Below are positions 39,411 through 52,722 of a DNA stretch of 64,000 nt, piece by piece. The translations under genes were made by a program, and so were the position numbers. Each line of letters starts with the position of its first letter. Within the stretch, counting starts at the first letter, position 1. Origin of the DNA: Sporosarcina pasteurii (lineage in GTDB: Bacteria > Bacillota > Bacilli > Bacillales_A > Planococcaceae); the NCBI RefSeq assembly GCF_041295575.1, contig NZ_CP160452.1, positions 1,116,001 to 1,180,000 on the forward strand, given 5' to 3'. The notes under the pieces are model-generated. The model did no database searches, was not told the DNA's origin, and saw only the letters and a list, made by a program, of their open reading frames with translations.

Positions 39411-39483
39411 TTCTTGAATAAACGAGTTCCTTCTATTTATATAGTGCTGATGATCGCACTGGCACTGTAGGAATATATTACCG

Positions 39484-39512
39484 TTGAAAATAGCGCTCCT
39501 TTATTATAAGAT
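39484..39512 (+). promoter_or_regulatory. Promoter of non-coding RNA candidate copy 1
   Basis: TTGAAA (39484-39489), exactly 17 bp, TAAGAT (39507-39512). The expected start at about 39519 is where similarity to the second copy begins. Confidence 0.65.
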
Positions 39513-39515
39513 ACT

Positions 39516-39718
39516 AATACAAGCTGCATTGTTCGTATCATTATTAAGTTTTAACCTTTAAGCTGTAAAAGGGAGTTTTATGATTGAAACTGAAATGGCA
39601 AGCCTCGTTCTTTTAATTAACAACGAGGACAGACAGGCAAGTTTCTGCGAACACCCACTTTGAGGAGTGGTGGTTTAAAACTTTCTAGAGACGTACGGCA
39701 GAGGCGGCTGATACATAA
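39516..39718 (+). ncRNA. Structured non-coding RNA candidate R4, copy 1
   Basis: About 203 nt, roughly 90% identical by eye to 52459-52660. Predicted helices: closing stem AGCTGC (39522-39527) with GCGGCT (39704-39709), extended by TTG/CAG and CGTA/TACG; AAGTTTTAACC with GGTTTAAAACTT; GAAACT with AGTTTC; CCTCGTT with AACGAGG; CCCACT-type hairpin with AGTGGTG. Differences from copy 2 keep pairing (CCTCGTT to CCTTGTT, AGTTTC to GGTTTC). No reading frame is conserved. Its own promoter lies directly upstream. Downstream, CATCCTCCGAAA looks like the left arm of copy 2's terminator without a right arm. Not recognised as tmRNA, SRP, RNase P or 6S RNA. Confidence 0.7.
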
Positions 39719-39865
39719 TTCATAATAAATATGCTAACTATATATAAGCATCCTCCGAAACTCACACAAATGGTCCGTTATGCAATTGAACATTGATGGC
39801 GGACAATCCATTTCATAATTATAAATAAGTGCGAAAATCACCAACGTTAATTATTCAAAAATATA

Positions 39866-42615: not shown

Positions 42616-42623
42616 AGGTGTCA

Positions 42624-42695
42624 AAATTATAGAGAGGAATTCCTACAAACGTTAATACATTCAACTTCTTTTCAAAGGAGTGTGCAATTGATAGC
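42624..42695 (-). repeat. Dispersed repeat R1, copy C tail half
   Basis: On the minus strand reads CAATTGCACACTCC, then TGTATTAACGTTTGTAGGAA and TTCCTCTCTATAA, matching the tail of copy B. The head half is at 45308-45340, on the other side of the group II intron. Confidence 0.7.
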
Positions 42696-42696
42696 A

Positions 42697-45162
42697 ATAG
42701 GTAAGGCTTTGAAATTATCTCTACCTTTTCCCCTGCTCCACACCGTACGTGAGACTTTCACCTCATACGGCGTTCCATCTTAATCTGATTAGATAATTTC
42801 AGTTAAATTACACTTCTTACGATATTTATTTAGTTTCTCAAGCTGTTTTCCGTTCAACTTCAGTATTTGCATATATCGTTCAATCGTTTTATCGGTTACC
42901 GCATGAATCAACTTGTGAACCGTTCGGTTCACTATTACTAGGTTTCTATATTCATCCGTCCCGCCTAATGACTTTGGCAGTATATGGTGGCAGTGCACAT
43001 CATAGCTATAAATGAATTCTCCAGTGATTGCACAGATTCCCTTCTGCATTGAATACCTTGAAAGCCTATTATCCGTATATTCTACAGTTTGTCCTCCATG
43101 TGTATTCATAAGCATTAGTTGCAGTTCCAGAGCTATACTCCCTTTAATTATTTGTTTATCATTTCGACCTTCTGATGTGTAATTACAGATACTTTGCTTA
43201 AAGTTTCTATTATCCAAAGTTCTGACATCCGCAATAGGATGCAGATGTACACCCAGTACTTCAAAGGTTTTATAGTTGTTTTTGTTAAATAATTTATAAG
43301 TTTCTGATGGTTTTCTTGGAACACCATACTTACCAATAGATTTCAAACGATTGTACAAGGTGCGGAATAGGCGATAGGCAATTTTAGCGAAGTCAATGCT
43401 AACATGCGTTGCTGATTTATAATAATTCTTAATCCCCATTACGTAGCTGTTATAATGGTTAACCGATTTTACGCTAGTGTCTTTCTGTATGGTCTTGATT
43501 AGCTCCCTAGCCTTATTTACTATTTCGTTTTTCTTGTTGGGGGCTACGTGCGTTATTGCTACATACTTTTTCTTCTTTCTTTTCGCTTCTAGCGTGAAAC
43601 CAAGAAATTCAGATTTATTTTTCCTAAGGTTTGTAATCTTAGATTTCTCAGGCGAAATTTCCAGGTCTAAATTGTTTTTCAGATACTTTTTGACTCCATG
43701 ATAAATTTTATAAGCTGATTTGTGATTCCTTGCGAATATCTTAAAGTCGTCTGCATAACGGACAATGAACATTTCTTTTAGATTCGTTTTCTTGAGCGAT
43801 CTATATTTACATCCATTGTCACTATACTTGTGATTCGTGTTCAATGATTCCCATTGGTTTGATATCCAGTGGTCCAAATCATTCAGTACCACGTTCGATA
43901 AAAGGGGCGACAATATCCCACCTTGCGGTGTGCCTTTTGTTGGAACCCCTGTTATTTCAATAGGTGCTTTCAACATTTTATTTATTACCGCTAACACTCT
44001 TCTATCCTTTATCCCCATATTGTATAATTGTTTCATCAGCTTATTGTGATTGACATTATCAAAAAATCCTTTTATATCTATATCTACAACATAGTGCAGA
44101 CCATTCCTGTTGATTAAATGTTGGCAACGAGCCATTGCATGTTTTGTAGCTCTATTTGGTCTAAAGCCATAAGAATGATTGTAGAATTTCGCTTCGCAGA
44201 TAGGCTCTAGGATTTGCTTTAACATTTGTTGTATCAACCTGTCGCGCATCGTCGGAATTCCCAGAGGTCTTGTTTTACCATTCGGTTTTGGTATCTCGAC
44301 TCTCCTCACACCATTTGGTTCATAGTTGTCTAGGCAGTTCACGATTTCGTTGACTAAACTATCTTCAGACTCTATCTTGAAATCAGCTATCGTTTTTCCG
44401 TCAACACCAGCAGTTTTGGAACCGGTATTGCTTTTAATGTTCCTATACGCAAGTAAGATGTTATGTTTTTCAGTAATTTTTCCATATAAGTCGTATCCCT
44501 CTAGCCCGTTATTCTTACTTCTTTCATAGAGTTCATCCAACTTGGTTTGCATATTGTAGTATTCATTATGACGTAATTGTGTACTCACCGATGGATTGCT
44601 TCCCTTTCCTTTCGAAAAGTCCCATCATCCTACACGACCTTGTGAGTTGCATTTAAGTTGTAATTATTTTCGAGAATTAAGACTTGGGGCTATCTCTCCG
44701 CAGTTTATTATCACTGTTTCATAAATACTGTGCCCCTACTCTCACAAGAATAAAGTCATTTCGGTTGGTTTTTAACCTTATAAACATCGACCCGATTATA
44801 GTCGTTTTTGTGGTCGTTTCTTGCTTTCCACGTTCCAATTAACCTAGCTGTGCATATATCTTTAGGTGGTTGCTCTGAGCCTGTGAAGTTATAGATTCAT
44901 CGTTACCTATTCCGAATTTCATAACGCCAGTCTTACTTTTCGGTACTTCACCCCACGGAGTGGGCTACATCTTTCGCGTGTAGTGACAATCTAGACCCTT
45001 TAATCCACAACTTTGTCAGTTCTTATAGAACATTCTCACCATTGATATTTTATAGCATCCCGACCTATCTATATCCTTGTCATTATAGTGGCTTGATTTA
45101 GGTTATATTCAGTCGACTTCACCTGGCTTCGTACGATTCAGAACTATATTTCTTAGTCGCAC
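42697..45162 (-). mobile_element. Group II intron with LtrA-type protein
   Basis: A self-splicing retroelement read on the minus strand. The 5' end is set at GTGCGAC (45162) and is followed by ~570 nt of domain I-III RNA before the protein gene in domain IV. Domain V is visible at about 42735-42775: CGCCGTATGAGG, GAAA tetraloop region, TCTCACGTACGG. Domain VI follows, and I place the 3' end at CCTAT (42697). Domain I features such as CGAAGCC and TGTAGCCCACTCCGTGGG are present. Size (2466 bp) is normal for bacterial introns. Boundaries are predicted, not proven; I could not confirm EBS/IBS pairing. Confidence 0.8.
42789..44588 (-). CDS. ltrA: Group II intron reverse transcriptase/maturase/endonuclease
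   Basis: 599 residues, apparently complete. Reverse transcriptase motifs run from 'GKTRPLGIPTMRDRLIQQMLKQIL' through 'YGFRPNRATKHAM', 'VDIDIKGFFDNVNH', 'GTPQGGILSPLLSNVVLNDLDHW' to the catalytic 'VRYADDF' (near residue 275). A maturase X domain follows, and a C-terminal HNH endonuclease ('CAITGEFIYSYDVHCHHILPKSLGG…LVIVNRTVHKLIHA'). It binds the intron RNA, assists splicing and drives retrohoming. GTG start; the purine-rich site is a rather distant GGAAAGGGAAG. All catalytic residues I can check are intact, so the intron may be active. Confidence 0.92.
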   Translation of the reverse strand: MSTQLRHNEYYNMQTKLDELYERSKNNGLEGYDLYGKITEKHNILLAYRNIKSNTGSKTAGVDGKTIADFKIESEDSLVNEIVNCLDNYEPNGVRRVEIPKPNGKTRPLGIPTMRDRLIQQMLKQILEPICEAKFYNHSYGFRPNRATKHAMARCQHLINRNGLHYVVDIDIKGFFDNVNHNKLMKQLYNMGIKDRRVLAVINKMLKAPIEITGVPTKGTPQGGILSPLLSNVVLNDLDHWISNQWESLNTNHKYSDNGCKYRSLKKTNLKEMFIVRYADDFKIFARNHKSAYKIYHGVKKYLKNNLDLEISPEKSKITNLRKNKSEFLGFTLEAKRKKKKYVAITHVAPNKKNEIVNKARELIKTIQKDTSVKSVNHYNSYVMGIKNYYKSATHVSIDFAKIAYRLFRTLYNRLKSIGKYGVPRKPSETYKLFNKNNYKTFEVLGVHLHPIADVRTLDNRNFKQSICNYTSEGRNDKQIIKGSIALELQLMLMNTHGGQTVEYTDNRLSRYSMQKGICAITGEFIYSYDVHCHHILPKSLGGTDEYRNLVIVNRTVHKLIHAVTDKTIERYMQILKLNGKQLEKLNKYRKKCNLTEII

Positions 45163-45307
45163 GCAGGAGTATTAGACAGTTCGTTTCGGCTCAACATGAC
45201 GGCTTTCATTCCGAACTACAGTTAATTAGTTATATTTCTTTTGGTTCAAGAAATCTCGCATTTCATGCCGTAGGCATTTATAGCGAAACGTGTCGCGCTA
45301 GCGCATT
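45163..45307. other. Unexplained 145-bp segment between intron 5' end and repeat R1
   Basis: Contains the palindrome GCGCTAGCGC and a TGCCTACGGCA hairpin on the minus strand. It is absent from the uninterrupted R1 copy B. It could be 5' exon, part of a larger insertion, or intron RNA if the true 5' end is further out. Confidence 0.4.
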
Positions 45308-45340
45308 ATCTGAATAGTTTTTCGTGCAGGAACCCCTCAC
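45308..45340 (-). repeat. Dispersed repeat R1, copy C head half
   Basis: Minus strand GTGAGGGGTTCCTGCACG then AAAAACTATTCAGAT, matching the head of copies A and B. It is joined on its outer side to a piece of the ykvI-like gene. Confidence 0.65.
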
Positions 45341-45341
45341 C

Positions 45342-45407
45342 AATCGATGCGATTATTTTCGCATGGATTATGAAGAAAAGAGTGCCGGAAAAGTTTGAAA
45401 TACAGAG
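45342..45407 (+). pseudogene. Duplicated 3' fragment of the YkvI-like permease gene
   Basis: Matches 35957-36021 (the last ~18 codons, stop and a few bases) with a handful of differences. It begins AATCGATGCGATTATT where the original has AATCGCCGCGATTATT. It is followed by a good terminator at 45413. Not a gene by itself. Confidence 0.85.
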
Positions 45408-45412
45408 ATACG

Positions 45413-45448
45413 AAAAGGCACCCTATGGAAATCGATAGGGTGCTTTTT
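45413..45448 (+). terminator. Terminator after the ykvI fragment
   Basis: Perfect stem GCACCCTAT / ATAGGGTGC flanked by AAAAG and CTTTTTG; works in both directions. Confidence 0.75.
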
Positions 45449-45469
45449 GTTGTTTCGTTTGGGAACAGA

Positions 45470-45615
45470 TGGGGGAATGTCCGTCCCCGCTCCAGTGATG
45501 TCCTCTCCCCGATCGCGGATCTTCGCTGAATTTTACGATGTCCTCTTAACTGTTCATGTTGTTCGCCCTCGGTCCAAGGACATCCTCTCCTGAGTCGGGA
45601 ATGTCCTATCCAGCT
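45470..45615. repeat. Imperfect tandem repeat R5 with GATGTCCTCT units
   Basis: Five irregular units of about 20-45 bp, each starting (G)AATGTCC, GATGTCCTCT or the inverted GGACATCCTCT, separated by GC-richer spacers such as CCCCGATCGCGG. No reading frame is kept. GC content is clearly above the flanks. Confidence 0.5.
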
Positions 45616-45741
45616 ACCGAAAAATGGTGTGTTTACTAGATTTTTATCGGTGGAATTGGCCAGCACACCGTTAGAAGAAAAGGATAAAGCTTATTAATGA
45701 ATCTTAATTTCAAAAAAATAAGAATAAACCGCAATTTACTA

Positions 45742-45779
45742 TTGACATAAGCATATGTAAAATATAGTATTCTACTATA
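45742..45779 (+). promoter_or_regulatory. Promoter of the NhaC gene with overlapping palindrome
   Basis: TTGACA (45742-45747), 17-bp spacer, TAGTAT (45765-45770). A TATAGTA-ttc-TACTATA palindrome at 45763-45779 covers the -10 and the expected start, a place where a repressor would block transcription. Confidence 0.65.
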
Positions 45780-45827
45780 CAGATAATTCTAACATGCTTT
45801 GTATAAGGGGTTTGAGGGGGAATGTAG

Positions 45828-47306
45828 ATGAAAAATCATACAAAGAAGGAAATGAATATTTGGCTTGCGTTATTGCCTTTAGTGATCATGATTGTTGTGA
45901 TGATTTTTACAGTTGTAAAACTGGAACAAGGTCCACATATTCCACTAATTGTCGGGACATCGATTGCTGCGCTAGTTGCTTGGAAAGTTGGCTTTAATTG
46001 GAAAGAAATTGAGGAAATGATGTATAAAGGAATTCGCCTTGCGTTACCGGCAGTTGTCATTATTATTTTAGTCGGCTCAACAATCGGTGCGTGGATGGGT
46101 GGCGGGATTGTTGCGACGATGATTTATTATGGTTTGCAAATTATTTCGCCCGCTTGGTTTTTGGTGACGATTACTTTAATTTGTGCAATTGTTTCACTCG
46201 CGATTGGGAGTTCTTGGTCCACGATGGGAACAATCGGTGTCGCGGGAATGGGGATTGGTCTAAGTATGGGGATACCTGCTGGTATGGTTGCGGGGGCAGT
46301 CATTTCAGGTGCTTATTTTGGCGATAAAATGTCGCCATTGTCAGATACGACCAACTTGGCAGCGGGGTTAACGGGTACGGATTTGTTTGAACATATTAAA
46401 CATATGTTATGGACAACGATTCCGGGTCTTGCGATTGCACTTGGTATTTATGCTTATTTAGGGCAACGTTTTGCAGCGGCGAGCATTGAAACAGTGGAAA
46501 TAGGACAAACGGTGCAAGTGTTGCAGGAAAGCTTCATTATTTCGCCGTGGTTATTACTTATTCCACTTGCCGTCATTGTACTTGTTGCGTTTAAAGTACC
46601 GGCCATTCCTGCTTTAATTGTTGGGATTGTACTTGGTTATTTAGCGCAAGTGTTTGTGCAAGGCGGGTCGATGGCGGTAGCGATTGAAGCGCTTCAAAGT
46701 GGCTTTACAATTTCGACAGGCAATGAAATGGTCGATGAACTATTCAATCGCGGCGGCTTGGATTCAATGATGTATACGGTTTCAATGACAATCGTTGCGA
46801 TGACTTTCGGTGGGATTTTGGAATTTTCGGGGATGTTGCAGTCGATGATGAATCAGCTATTAAAAATCGTGAAATCAGCAAAATCACTGATTGTATCAAC
46901 GATTGCTGCTTGTTTTATGACGAATGCTTCATGTTCAGAACAATATATTTCGATTGTTGTACCATCAAGAATGTTTAGTGGTGCATATCGTAAAATGGGG
47001 CTTCATTCCAAGAACTTATCGCGTTCATTGGAAGACGGGGGAACATTAACCTCCGTTTTCATTCCGTGGAATACATGCGGCGTCTTTATTTTTGGGACAT
47101 TAGGAGTTAGCGTCGTGCAATACGGCCCCTATGCCATTTTAAATTTCGCTGTTCCGATTCTTGGGATGATTTATGCGGTGACAGGCTTTACAATCACGAA
47201 ATTAACGGAAGAAGAAAAAGCAGCTGCGGAAGTAGAAGAAACGCAAGCTTTACAGTCACAAGAAGTGCTTACCCCCCTAGAAAAATCGGTATCCAGTCAT
47301 TTTTGA
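45828..47306 (+). CDS. nhaC: NhaC family Na+/H+ antiporter
   Basis: 492 residues with about 12 membrane helices. NhaC-family features are 'GSTIGAWMGGGIVATMIYYGL', 'AIGSSWSTMGTIGVAGMGIG', 'GAVISGAYFGDKMSPLSDTTNLA' (conserved Asp-Lys-Met-Ser-Pro) and 'TNASCSEQYISIVVPSRMF'. It exports sodium in exchange for protons, or swaps related organic ions as some NhaC relatives do. GAGGGGG precedes the ATG. It stands alone with its own promoter; the ectoine genes 8 kb away fit a salt-tolerant lifestyle. Confidence 0.9.
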   Translation: MKNHTKKEMNIWLALLPLVIMIVVMIFTVVKLEQGPHIPLIVGTSIAALVAWKVGFNWKEIEEMMYKGIRLALPAVVIIILVGSTIGAWMGGGIVATMIYYGLQIISPAWFLVTITLICAIVSLAIGSSWSTMGTIGVAGMGIGLSMGIPAGMVAGAVISGAYFGDKMSPLSDTTNLAAGLTGTDLFEHIKHMLWTTIPGLAIALGIYAYLGQRFAAASIETVEIGQTVQVLQESFIISPWLLLIPLAVIVLVAFKVPAIPALIVGIVLGYLAQVFVQGGSMAVAIEALQSGFTISTGNEMVDELFNRGGLDSMMYTVSMTIVAMTFGGILEFSGMLQSMMNQLLKIVKSAKSLIVSTIAACFMTNASCSEQYISIVVPSRMFSGAYRKMGLHSKNLSRSLEDGGTLTSVFIPWNTCGVFIFGTLGVSVVQYGPYAILNFAVPILGMIYAVTGFTITKLTEEEKAAAEVEETQALQSQEVLTPLEKSVSSHF

Positions 47307-47505
47307 TGATTGGGCACGGATTTTGATGATCAAGATAAAACCTTATCGAATCCGAAGATATTGTTGGCGTAACGGCGGCTAATTAAATTAAGTGGCTGCT
47401 GTATAATTTCTTCCTGTTATCTTCGTGTAGGGATATCATTTTTTACTGTTATCGATGGTAATAGGTACCTAGATATATCAAAGTTTGATGAAGAGAGTAC
47501 AACCA

Positions 47506-47544
47506 AAAAGTAGTGCAGACCATAAATTGGTTTGCACTACTTTT
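47506..47544. terminator. Bidirectional terminator between nhaC and alkaline phosphatase
   Basis: 16-bp stem AAAAGTAGTGCAGACC / GGTTTGCACTACTTTT (one G-T or A-C mismatch) with a 7-nt loop; T-run on either strand. Confidence 0.85.
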
Positions 47545-47561
47545 ACCATTGTGACCAAAAT

Positions 47562-48866
47562 TTACTTAAATGGTATTTTCATTGCTTCGGCCATCAGTTG
47601 TGGGAAATCAGTATTTTCGATAAGACCAGCAAATTTATGGGCTTGTGGTCCATAAGCATAAATAGGGATGTCTTCACCCGTATGTCCAGTATGTGACCAA
47701 CCAACAAGTGCATGCCTAGAAATGATTGAGTTAATTTGAAGCGCTGGATTGCCTGCTTGTTTAATTTGTTTTATTTCGGCTTCAGTTAATGTAATGCCTG
47801 TATGTTCCAATACAACTTCTTGAATATTATTTCGTTCTTCATTTAATTGAGCAGCCATAAAATCACCAGTAGCTGTTACATTTTTAAGGATGTCCAAATT
47901 AGCACCTGATTGATTGTAACCGCCGACAGACATACCGCCTGTGTCATGATCACTTGCGATAACGACTAATGTTTTCTTATCTTTTTTTGCAAAATCTAAA
48001 GCTTCTTTGACTGCATCTTCAAACGCTTCGGTATCTTTCATCGCCCATGCTGCATCGTTTGCGTGGCCAGCCCAATCGATTTGACTGCCTTCAACCATTA
48101 AGAAGAATCCGTCTTTATTTTTACTTAAAACTTCGATAGCTGCGGCTGTCATTTCTTGCAAACTTGGCTCATTAGTCGTCTCACGATCTAATTCAGGAGT
48201 TAAACTATCTTCCGCGAAGAGACCGATTAACTTGTCCACTTTCTTTAGATTACTCATCGATTGTGCATCGGATACAATTTCATAACCATTTTTTTGTGCT
48301 TTATTTAAAAGTTCATTACTAAAATACTTTTTACCGCCACCTAGGAGGACATCGACATCATTTTCAAGGAGTTGTGGTGCAATAGCTGCCTCGTTTGCGC
48401 GCGATTCAACTTCTGAAGCGAAAGCCGCTGGTGTGGCATGGGTAATCGTTGAAGTTGCGACTAATCCTGTAGATTTTCCGCTCTTCTCGGCTGCCTGTAA
48501 AATTGAAGTGTGTTTATTCCCCTCAGGATCAATCCCAATCACCCCGTTGTTCGTTTTTACTCCAGTAGCCATCGCAGTACCGGCAGCAGCAAAATCCGTC
48601 ACTTCCGAGTTAGCAGAGTAAGTCCGGTGCATACCAACTAGATGTGAATCCATGACTGATTCTTCCCCTTTGTACAAGCGATAATTTGTCGCATACGCAG
48701 TAGAGTATCCATCTGGAATCATGAAAATCACATTTTCTACCTTTTCGTTCGATTGAGGATTTTTTGCTTCAGCGGGTTGAAAAGCTGCGTTTCCCGCAAA
48801 ACTTCCTACAAGTAAACTTCCAGCAATTGCTAGGATCATACTCTTTTTCTTAAACGTTTTCTTCAA
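47562..48866 (-). CDS. Secreted alkaline phosphatase family protein with altered nucleophile
   Basis: 434 residues with a Sec signal peptide (cleavage likely after AEA, residue 34). Metal-site motifs of PhoA-type phosphatases are mostly present: 'VIFMIPDGYS', 'VEGSQIDWAGHANDAA', 'ASDHDTGGM' and 'WSHTGHTGED'. The nucleophile motif, usually TDSAAA(G)TA, reads TDFAAAGTA: residue 92 is Phe (codon TTT; one C-to-T change from TCT). 'FASEVESR' stands where a His is often seen. If real, normal phosphomonoesterase activity should be lost. A PhoP-type box upstream indicates phosphate-starvation control. GGAGGA precedes the ATG. Confidence 0.87.
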   Translation of the reverse strand: MKKTFKKKSMILAIAGSLLVGSFAGNAAFQPAEAKNPQSNEKVENVIFMIPDGYSTAYATNYRLYKGEESVMDSHLVGMHRTYSANSEVTDFAAAGTAMATGVKTNNGVIGIDPEGNKHTSILQAAEKSGKSTGLVATSTITHATPAAFASEVESRANEAAIAPQLLENDVDVLLGGGKKYFSNELLNKAQKNGYEIVSDAQSMSNLKKVDKLIGLFAEDSLTPELDRETTNEPSLQEMTAAAIEVLSKNKDGFFLMVEGSQIDWAGHANDAAWAMKDTEAFEDAVKEALDFAKKDKKTLVVIASDHDTGGMSVGGYNQSGANLDILKNVTATGDFMAAQLNEERNNIQEVVLEHTGITLTEAEIKQIKQAGNPALQINSIISRHALVGWSHTGHTGEDIPIYAYGPQAHKFAGLIENTDFPQLMAEAMKIPFK

Positions 48867-49241
48867 TCCAATTCCTCCTTTGAAATATCGTTCAATTTCA
48901 TTCTATCTTTCGATTGTTAATCTAGTATTAATCTATTGTTCGGGAATTGTTAATTTTTCGTCAGCTGTTTGAGTGCGTTGTATGTTGCAGTTTATTGTGA
49001 TGAACAACGGTGCAAAAGGGGGTATGCATTTAGATAATTTAATGAGCACAATTTCCGCATGATATTAGGAATGAAGGAATACAATCAATGAAGGGGAATT
49101 GTAAAAAAAAGTGCGAGACTCCGTGACGATTGATCTACAGTGAAAATGGGATGAATTGACCTTAGCATGTACTCGATTTTGTAAATCACGCGTCAAATAA
49201 TTTACAGGGATGCAAAATTTAATAAATGAAAGGATGAGGAA
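48867..49241. other. Divergent region between alkaline phosphatase and sugar ABC operon
   Basis: Contains the PhoP box at 48915-48953 for the minus-strand gene. For the plus-strand operon TTGACC near 49157 is a possible -35, with TTGTAAA-like sequence 17 bp later. No gene seen. Confidence 0.4.
48915..48953 (-). promoter_or_regulatory. PhoP box upstream of the alkaline phosphatase gene
   Basis: On the minus strand four hexamers lie at an 11-bp period: TTAACA, CGAACA, TTAATA, TTAACA, matching the Bacillus PhoP repeat TT(A/C/T)A(C/T)A with 5-bp gaps. The box ends about 50 bp before the start codon, with a TAGAAT -10 candidate between. Confidence 0.7.
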
Positions 49242-52362: not shown

Positions 52363-52425
52363 TTAACGAAACCATTGACTATCACAAATATGAGTGGCGT
52401 ATTGCCTTGTCGGAAGGTATTTCCA

Positions 52426-52454
52426 TTGAAAAAAGTAAGCTTGCGGTGTAAAAT
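52426..52454 (+). promoter_or_regulatory. Promoter of non-coding RNA candidate copy 2
   Basis: TTGAAA (52426-52431), exactly 17 bp, TAAAAT (52449-52454). The expected start at about 52461 is where similarity to copy 1 begins, while spacer and flanks are not conserved. Confidence 0.65.
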
Positions 52455-52458
52455 AATG

Positions 52459-52660
52459 AATACAAGCTGCATTGTTCGTACCACTATTAAGTTTTAACCT
52501 TTAAGCTATAAAAGGGAGTTTTAAATCGAAACTGAAATGGCAAGCCTTGTTCTTTTCACAAACAACGAGGACAGACAGGAAGGTTTCTGCGGACACCCAC
52601 TTTGAGGAGTGGTGGTTTAAAACTTTCTAATGACGTACGGCAAAGGCGGCTTCTACATAA
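52459..52660 (+). ncRNA. Structured non-coding RNA candidate R4, copy 2
   Basis: About 202 nt. Helices by position: P1 52464-52470 with 52646-52652 (AAGCTGC/GCGGCTT), extended by 52472-52474 with 52641-52643 and 52477-52480 with 52636-52639; P2 52489-52499 with 52614-52625 (AAGTTTTAACC/GGTTTAAAACTT); P4 52528-52533 with 52582-52587; P5 52545-52551 with 52564-52570; P6 52595-52601 with 52608-52613. A strong terminator follows 14 nt after the conserved part. The combination of promoter, closed multibranched fold and terminator says independent RNA gene. Alternatives are a non-autonomous element carrying a guide-type RNA or a known class I do not recall. Confidence 0.72.
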
Positions 52661-52674
52661 ATAAAAAATTTAAT

Positions 52675-52722
52675 AAACATCCTTCAAATCCGTATTTCGA
52701 ATTTGAAGGATGTTTTTGTTTT
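52675..52722 (+). terminator. Terminator of ncRNA copy 2
   Basis: Perfect 15-bp stem AAACATCCTTCAAAT / ATTTGAAGGATGTTT with an 11-nt loop, then TTGTTTTG. Confidence 0.85.

Follow-up and report, generated by a model that had tools for sequence, protein, structure and literature searches.

Most bacteria possess one or two 6S RNA genes. PMC8876501 and PMC12005410 describe 6S RNA as a mimic of an open promoter, which occupies the housekeeping holoenzyme in competition with DNA promoters and is set free once the polymerase transcribes a pRNA from the 6S RNA itself. B. subtilis is described as having one 6S-1 and one 6S-2 RNA (BsrB). According to PMC7726162, the Bacillus cereus group carries a tandem pair, ssrSA-ssrSB, with both genes in one operon, and Magnetococcus MC-1 is cited with four 6S genes, the highest published number that we found. 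The genome described here shares with the former that a Bacillales genome has more than one 6S gene and with the latter an unusual copy number. However, it differs from B. subtilis by having four additional paralogues, which have an upstream promoter element in common, from the Bacillus cereus group in that these extra genes are dispersed and have their own promoters, and from Magnetococcus MC-1, compared by description, in having six rather than four genes, in Bacillales and mostly of the 6S-2 type (PMC7726162).

The window that we analysed is a 64,000-nt stretch of Sporosarcina pasteurii (C1:1116001-1180000 in a single-contig genome of 3.30 Mb). A first-pass annotation had pointed to a sequence of ~203 nt recurring 13 kb away with ~90% identity. 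Both places were found, and their alignment of 197 columns contains 17 substitutions and 1 gap, corresponding to 90.9% identity. Copy 1 (39518..39714, + strand; genome 1155518-1155714) lies downstream of the ectoine synthase gene ectC, and copy 2 (52461..52656, + strand; genome 1168461-1168656) follows a sugar-type ABC permease operon. Compared with RF00013 (6S/SsrS, Rfam 15), copy 1 scored 70.4 bits and copy 2 79.1 bits at a cut-off of 46.4, both across the full model (1-187). The RNA of both copies is a known 6S RNA and its class is not new; the first-pass annotation was wrong in seeing no match to 6S RNA. At the edge of the window, a purine riboswitch aptamer (RF00167, 72.5 bits) was found at 37-138 on the - strand.

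A search of the whole genome with RF00013 at E <= 1 returned six loci with 70.4-107.5 bits (cut-off 46.4), among which copy 1 has the lowest score. The 6S-1 gene (1376708) is located between an aspartyl-tRNA-synthetase-type gene (aspS) and a ThiF-family gene, where B. subtilis has bsrA according to PMC11077062. The canonical 6S-2 gene (2463606) lies beside a YpsA-family gene (ypsA), a setting found in many congeners (gene cluster c3). The remaining loci, at 1053678, 1074680, 1155518 (copy 1) and 1168461 (copy 2), all fall within 115 kb; their pairwise identities are 90-94%, compared with 75-77% to the canonical 6S-2 and 44-46% to 6S-1. Both these identities and a tree, read without support values, group the extra copies with 6S-2 and apart from the aspS-adjacent 6S-1. 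The two stretches in the window are 6S-2-type genes and belong to a set of four extra paralogues, which the genome carries in addition to its 6S-1 and its canonical 6S-2. The word "twin" used for them falls short of a genome with five 6S-2-type copies and one 6S-1.

Folding of single sequences gave a weak signal for the two window copies (z -2.46 and -3.23, with 3/200 and 1/200 shuffles equal or better), and for this reason covariation was used in its place. The alignment (A1) comprised 32 of the 62 6S-2 loci, hand-chosen for spread and with none from outside this set, which had been obtained from a 64-row tree by dropping two 6S-1 sequences. When the Rfam structure was projected onto these 32 sequences, 13 pairs were changed on both sides compared to 8.1 in shuffles, none of 500 shuffles reached as high a number, and the signal fell once the strands were slid. 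Because the projected structure left 7 non-standard pairs in copy 1 and 86.1% of the cells paired, the consensus of the alignment itself was also used. It consists of 52 pairs, 15 of which show compensated changes, although deriving it from the same 32 sequences that it scores favours this consensus. All four extra copies keep 52/52 consensus pairs, and the columns that vary among them amount to 6/104 for paired and 19/98 for unpaired positions. The pairing-preserving changes that had been claimed are present, namely C to U in column 89 opposite G and A to G in column 123 opposite U. The closing stem, central bubble and apical arm that characterize 6S RNA are conserved with covariation. This comparison supports the proposal of a structured non-coding RNA gene that would have its own promoter and a fold under selection.

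The predicted promoters of copy 1 (TTGAAA-17-TAAGAT, 39484..39512, + strand) and copy 2 (TTGAAA-17-TAAAAT, 52426..52454, + strand) end 5-6 nt upstream of the conserved block, the former exactly as it had been described. Promoter-like matches by themselves were not above chance in our scans (5 found vs 2.9 expected; 1 vs 1.3), and we give weight to these promoters because their layout is kept in 62/62 6S-2 loci. Just upstream of the -35 box, comparison across the 6S-2 loci and of the flanks revealed a GGAA-N7-CC element on the + strand at 39470..39482 (copy 1) and 52412..52424 (copy 2). GGAA precedes the -35 box in 9/10 copies of the extra clade and in 15/52 other 6S-2 loci; it is missing at the canonical 6S-2 gene of this genome and present at some canonical genes elsewhere. 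This distribution hints at, and does not prove, a separate regulation of the extra copies. By analogy with B. subtilis 6S-2, we take the + strand segments 39546..39559 of copy 1 and 52489..52502 of copy 2 to be putative pRNA templates. The 14-nt segment is exact in 60/62 6S-2 loci and is presumably identical to the template of BsrB. The likeness to BsrB comprises the match to RF00013, the rod fold with its central bubble, the template segment and a housekeeping-type promoter of its own.

Downstream of the RNA, the two copies differ. By eye and against the other copies, copy 1 retains the left arm of a terminator-like hairpin (39748..39762, + strand), the right arm of which is missing, and no + strand terminator was found by scan up to 39960; copy 1 thus seems to have no terminator. 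Copy 2 is followed by a hairpin with a T-rich tail (52675..52715, + strand; stem and tail recognised by eye), which is conserved in a related species (G091). The scan reports it on the - strand only, since the loop on the + strand exceeds the limit of the scan. Across the four extra copies, homology extends upstream to about -51 in all pairs and to -104 in one pair, and downstream to +206 or further, up to +236, so that the homologous flank includes the GGAA-N7-CC element. The flanks had been described as not conserved, which is correct for the 17-nt promoter spacer and incorrect for the surrounding DNA, and the argument for selection that was built on diverged flanks fails. Better indications of selection are the covariation and the presence of a syntenic copy in another species of this lineage.

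This syntenic copy is the counterpart of copy 2 in G091, which has the same transporter operon upstream, the same terminator and 94.9% identity in the core. Since copy 2 occupies the same place in another species, it is not a fresh duplication; together with the presence of five 6S-2-type copies, this led us to reject a recent twin duplication. The copy at 1074680 likewise has a syntenic counterpart in G091 (98.5% identical). Between the two genomes, the canonical 6S-2 genes are 97.9% and the 6S-1 genes 96.8% identical compared with 94.9% for copy 2, a value equal to that of the DNA just upstream of its promoter, so copy 2 has diverged no less than this DNA. In addition, its G091 counterpart contains one broken pair, and weaker constraint on copy 2 is possible. 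For copy 1, no 6S gene was found at the syntenic place in the four relatives checked. The upstream gene ectC is absent from 3/4 of these relatives, and no 6S follows ectC in G015, where ectoine genes are present. The copy at 1053678 accompanies the same amino-acid transporter operon as in G081 and has no equivalent at the corresponding position of G091. In G081 itself, this operon lies between two direct 6S-2-type copies (L140:3848-10200), whereas one copy is found at the operon here. The region between the two window copies contains a group II intron with a reverse transcriptase/HNH protein (42691-45234, - strand), and the syntenic stretch of G091 lacks anything corresponding to positions 42622-49053.

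To place the six genes in context, we consider the counts in relatives. Among 68 genomes of the genus, RF00013 matches numbered six in 1 (the genome described here, which is the highest), four in 3 and three in 8; another 55 had one or two, and a single genome, 75% complete, had none. The strict filters of this count missed the fifth copy of G081. A DNA search for full or near-full 6S-2 genes in these 68 genomes, excluding fragments, gave 5 copies here, 4 in G081, 3 each in G087 and G091, two copies in 13 genomes, a single copy in 50 and none in 1; G081 has five 6S genes in total (four 6S-2 and the 6S-1). In the sister genus, four or more 6S genes were counted in 7/25 genomes. One of its members, G246, carries six, four of which form a 264-bp tandem array (L175:5765-6747). 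A sample of 250 genomes from the order, every one from a single family, contained at least 9 with four or more. This number is a lower bound, as at most nine candidates per genome were scored at E <= 1e-9 and the method recovers 5/6 loci here, 2 for G081 and 3 for G091; a fast-filter scan also missed two 6S genes that another scan scored at ~74 bits.

By analogy with the 6S family, each extra gene would use a housekeeping-type promoter of its own to produce a ~200-nt rod, the central bubble of which would mimic an open promoter. The RNA would bind the housekeeping RNA polymerase holoenzyme, hold it off DNA promoters and be freed when the polymerase uses it as a template for a short pRNA. For these copies, transcription, polymerase binding and pRNA synthesis are inferred from the family, and the extra copies are most likely working RNA-polymerase-binding 6S RNAs, a reading in which we have good confidence. 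Because they share an upstream promoter element that the canonical 6S-2 of this genome lacks, the likeliest reason for keeping them would be a raised dosage, a separate regulation or both, with neutral duplication next. Several points count against such a function: copy 1 was found at no syntenic place in the relatives checked, scores lowest and apparently has no terminator, copy 2 has diverged more than the canonical genes, and the upstream element is shared by a number of canonical 6S-2 genes. Taking up these points, one could view the extra copies as decaying neutral duplicates in a genome where only the 6S-1 and the canonical 6S-2 matter. The low score and apparent lack of a terminator of copy 1, the faster divergence of copy 2 relative to the canonical genes, a 46-nt 6S remnant in G091 and the variable copy number among congeners would all fit this view. 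However, every consensus pair, the promoter and the template segment are kept in all four copies, and two of the extra copies occupy conserved places in another species, which makes decay rather unlikely.

Judging from the arrangement of their genomes, relatives appear to offer the 3' end of 6S-2 to temperate phages as an attachment site. In G085 (L187:2692-2883, L189:14223-15699), a prophage of ~50.7 kb, which includes a tape-measure gene, is bordered by a full 6S-2 gene and a repeat, which is a perfect 120-bp copy of the 6S-2 3' end and its terminator, and a tyrosine integrase (PF00589) is encoded ~150 bp from this repeat. A 73% identical integrase adjoins a 6S 3' fragment in G083 (L190:6165-7554). 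In G031 (L072), ~4 kb with a 56-residue integrase tail separate a full 6S-2 from a fragment, and G091 has a 6S fragment without such an integrase. At E <= 1e-90, the integrase occurs in 4/68 genomes; in G029 and G032 (48-49% identity) it is located away from 6S loci. Twelve viral contigs carry the 3'-end motif, of which five show a 6S 3' fragment next to the integrase (L194, L195, L197, L199 and L202, with L197 and L202 looking like the same phage), two contain a full 6S that is followed on its 3' side by phage genes, and five are unrelated. A separate search of viral contigs yielded eleven integrase relatives. In four cases the contig continues for 1 kb or more beyond the gene, and each of these carries the fragment 166-207 bp away, but these four contigs are among the five just named; the other seven stop within 21 bases of the gene and are uninformative.

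On their origin, the copies might accordingly have been spread by mobile elements, for instance by phages attaching at the 6S-2 3' end, which would not exclude a function. Besides the integration in relatives, the transporter operon flanked by two direct 6S copies in G081, the absence of the 1053678 copy at the G091 place matching the same operon and the position of the 1074680 copy after genes resembling, by eye, phage-type replication genes can be read in this way. Yet integration duplicates the 3' end only, neither the promoter nor the whole gene, and no integrase of the 6S-targeting family was found in this genome at E <= 1e-90. Furthermore, no transposase or integrase was recognised beside either window copy, partly by eye, and nothing was found to support the idea that phages or plasmids brought in the window copies, with 0 matches in 50,697 phage and two in 72,556 plasmid records. 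We consider spread by mobile elements decidedly unlikely. A 6S-2-type 6S RNA was observed aboard the 22,218-bp plasmid NZ_CP137638.1 of Niallia sp. XMNu-256 (L186), together with ParA, a replication protein, two tyrosine recombinases, two complete rRNA gene sets and 29 tRNA matches. Since the integrase was not detected here, a link between phage attachment and the copy expansion in this genome is conjecture. It is a long shot that 6S-2 has grown, throughout this bacterial family, into a set of up to six genes in connection with temperate phages attaching at its 3' end, such that spare copies buffer the polymerase regulator against phage insertion, phage-driven rearrangement adds copies and some of these have gained regulation of their own. 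Finally, a new class of structured RNA, as proposed in the first-pass annotation, can practically be dismissed and we reject it, since nothing except the fold itself speaks for it and the full-length match of both copies to RF00013 is the outcome that the annotation itself had named as refuting.

Phages classically attach at stable-RNA genes for tRNA and tmRNA, and the 3' end of 6S-2 would add a further target of this kind if it is unreported; judged by titles and the openings of abstracts, none of the literature matches listed describes a 6S gene as a phage attachment site. Six 6S genes are unusual for an RNA that is commonly regarded as a global regulator encoded by one or two genes. Where their number reaches six, as in this lineage, they would offer a natural dosage series and may serve to test for a division of work among paralogues.
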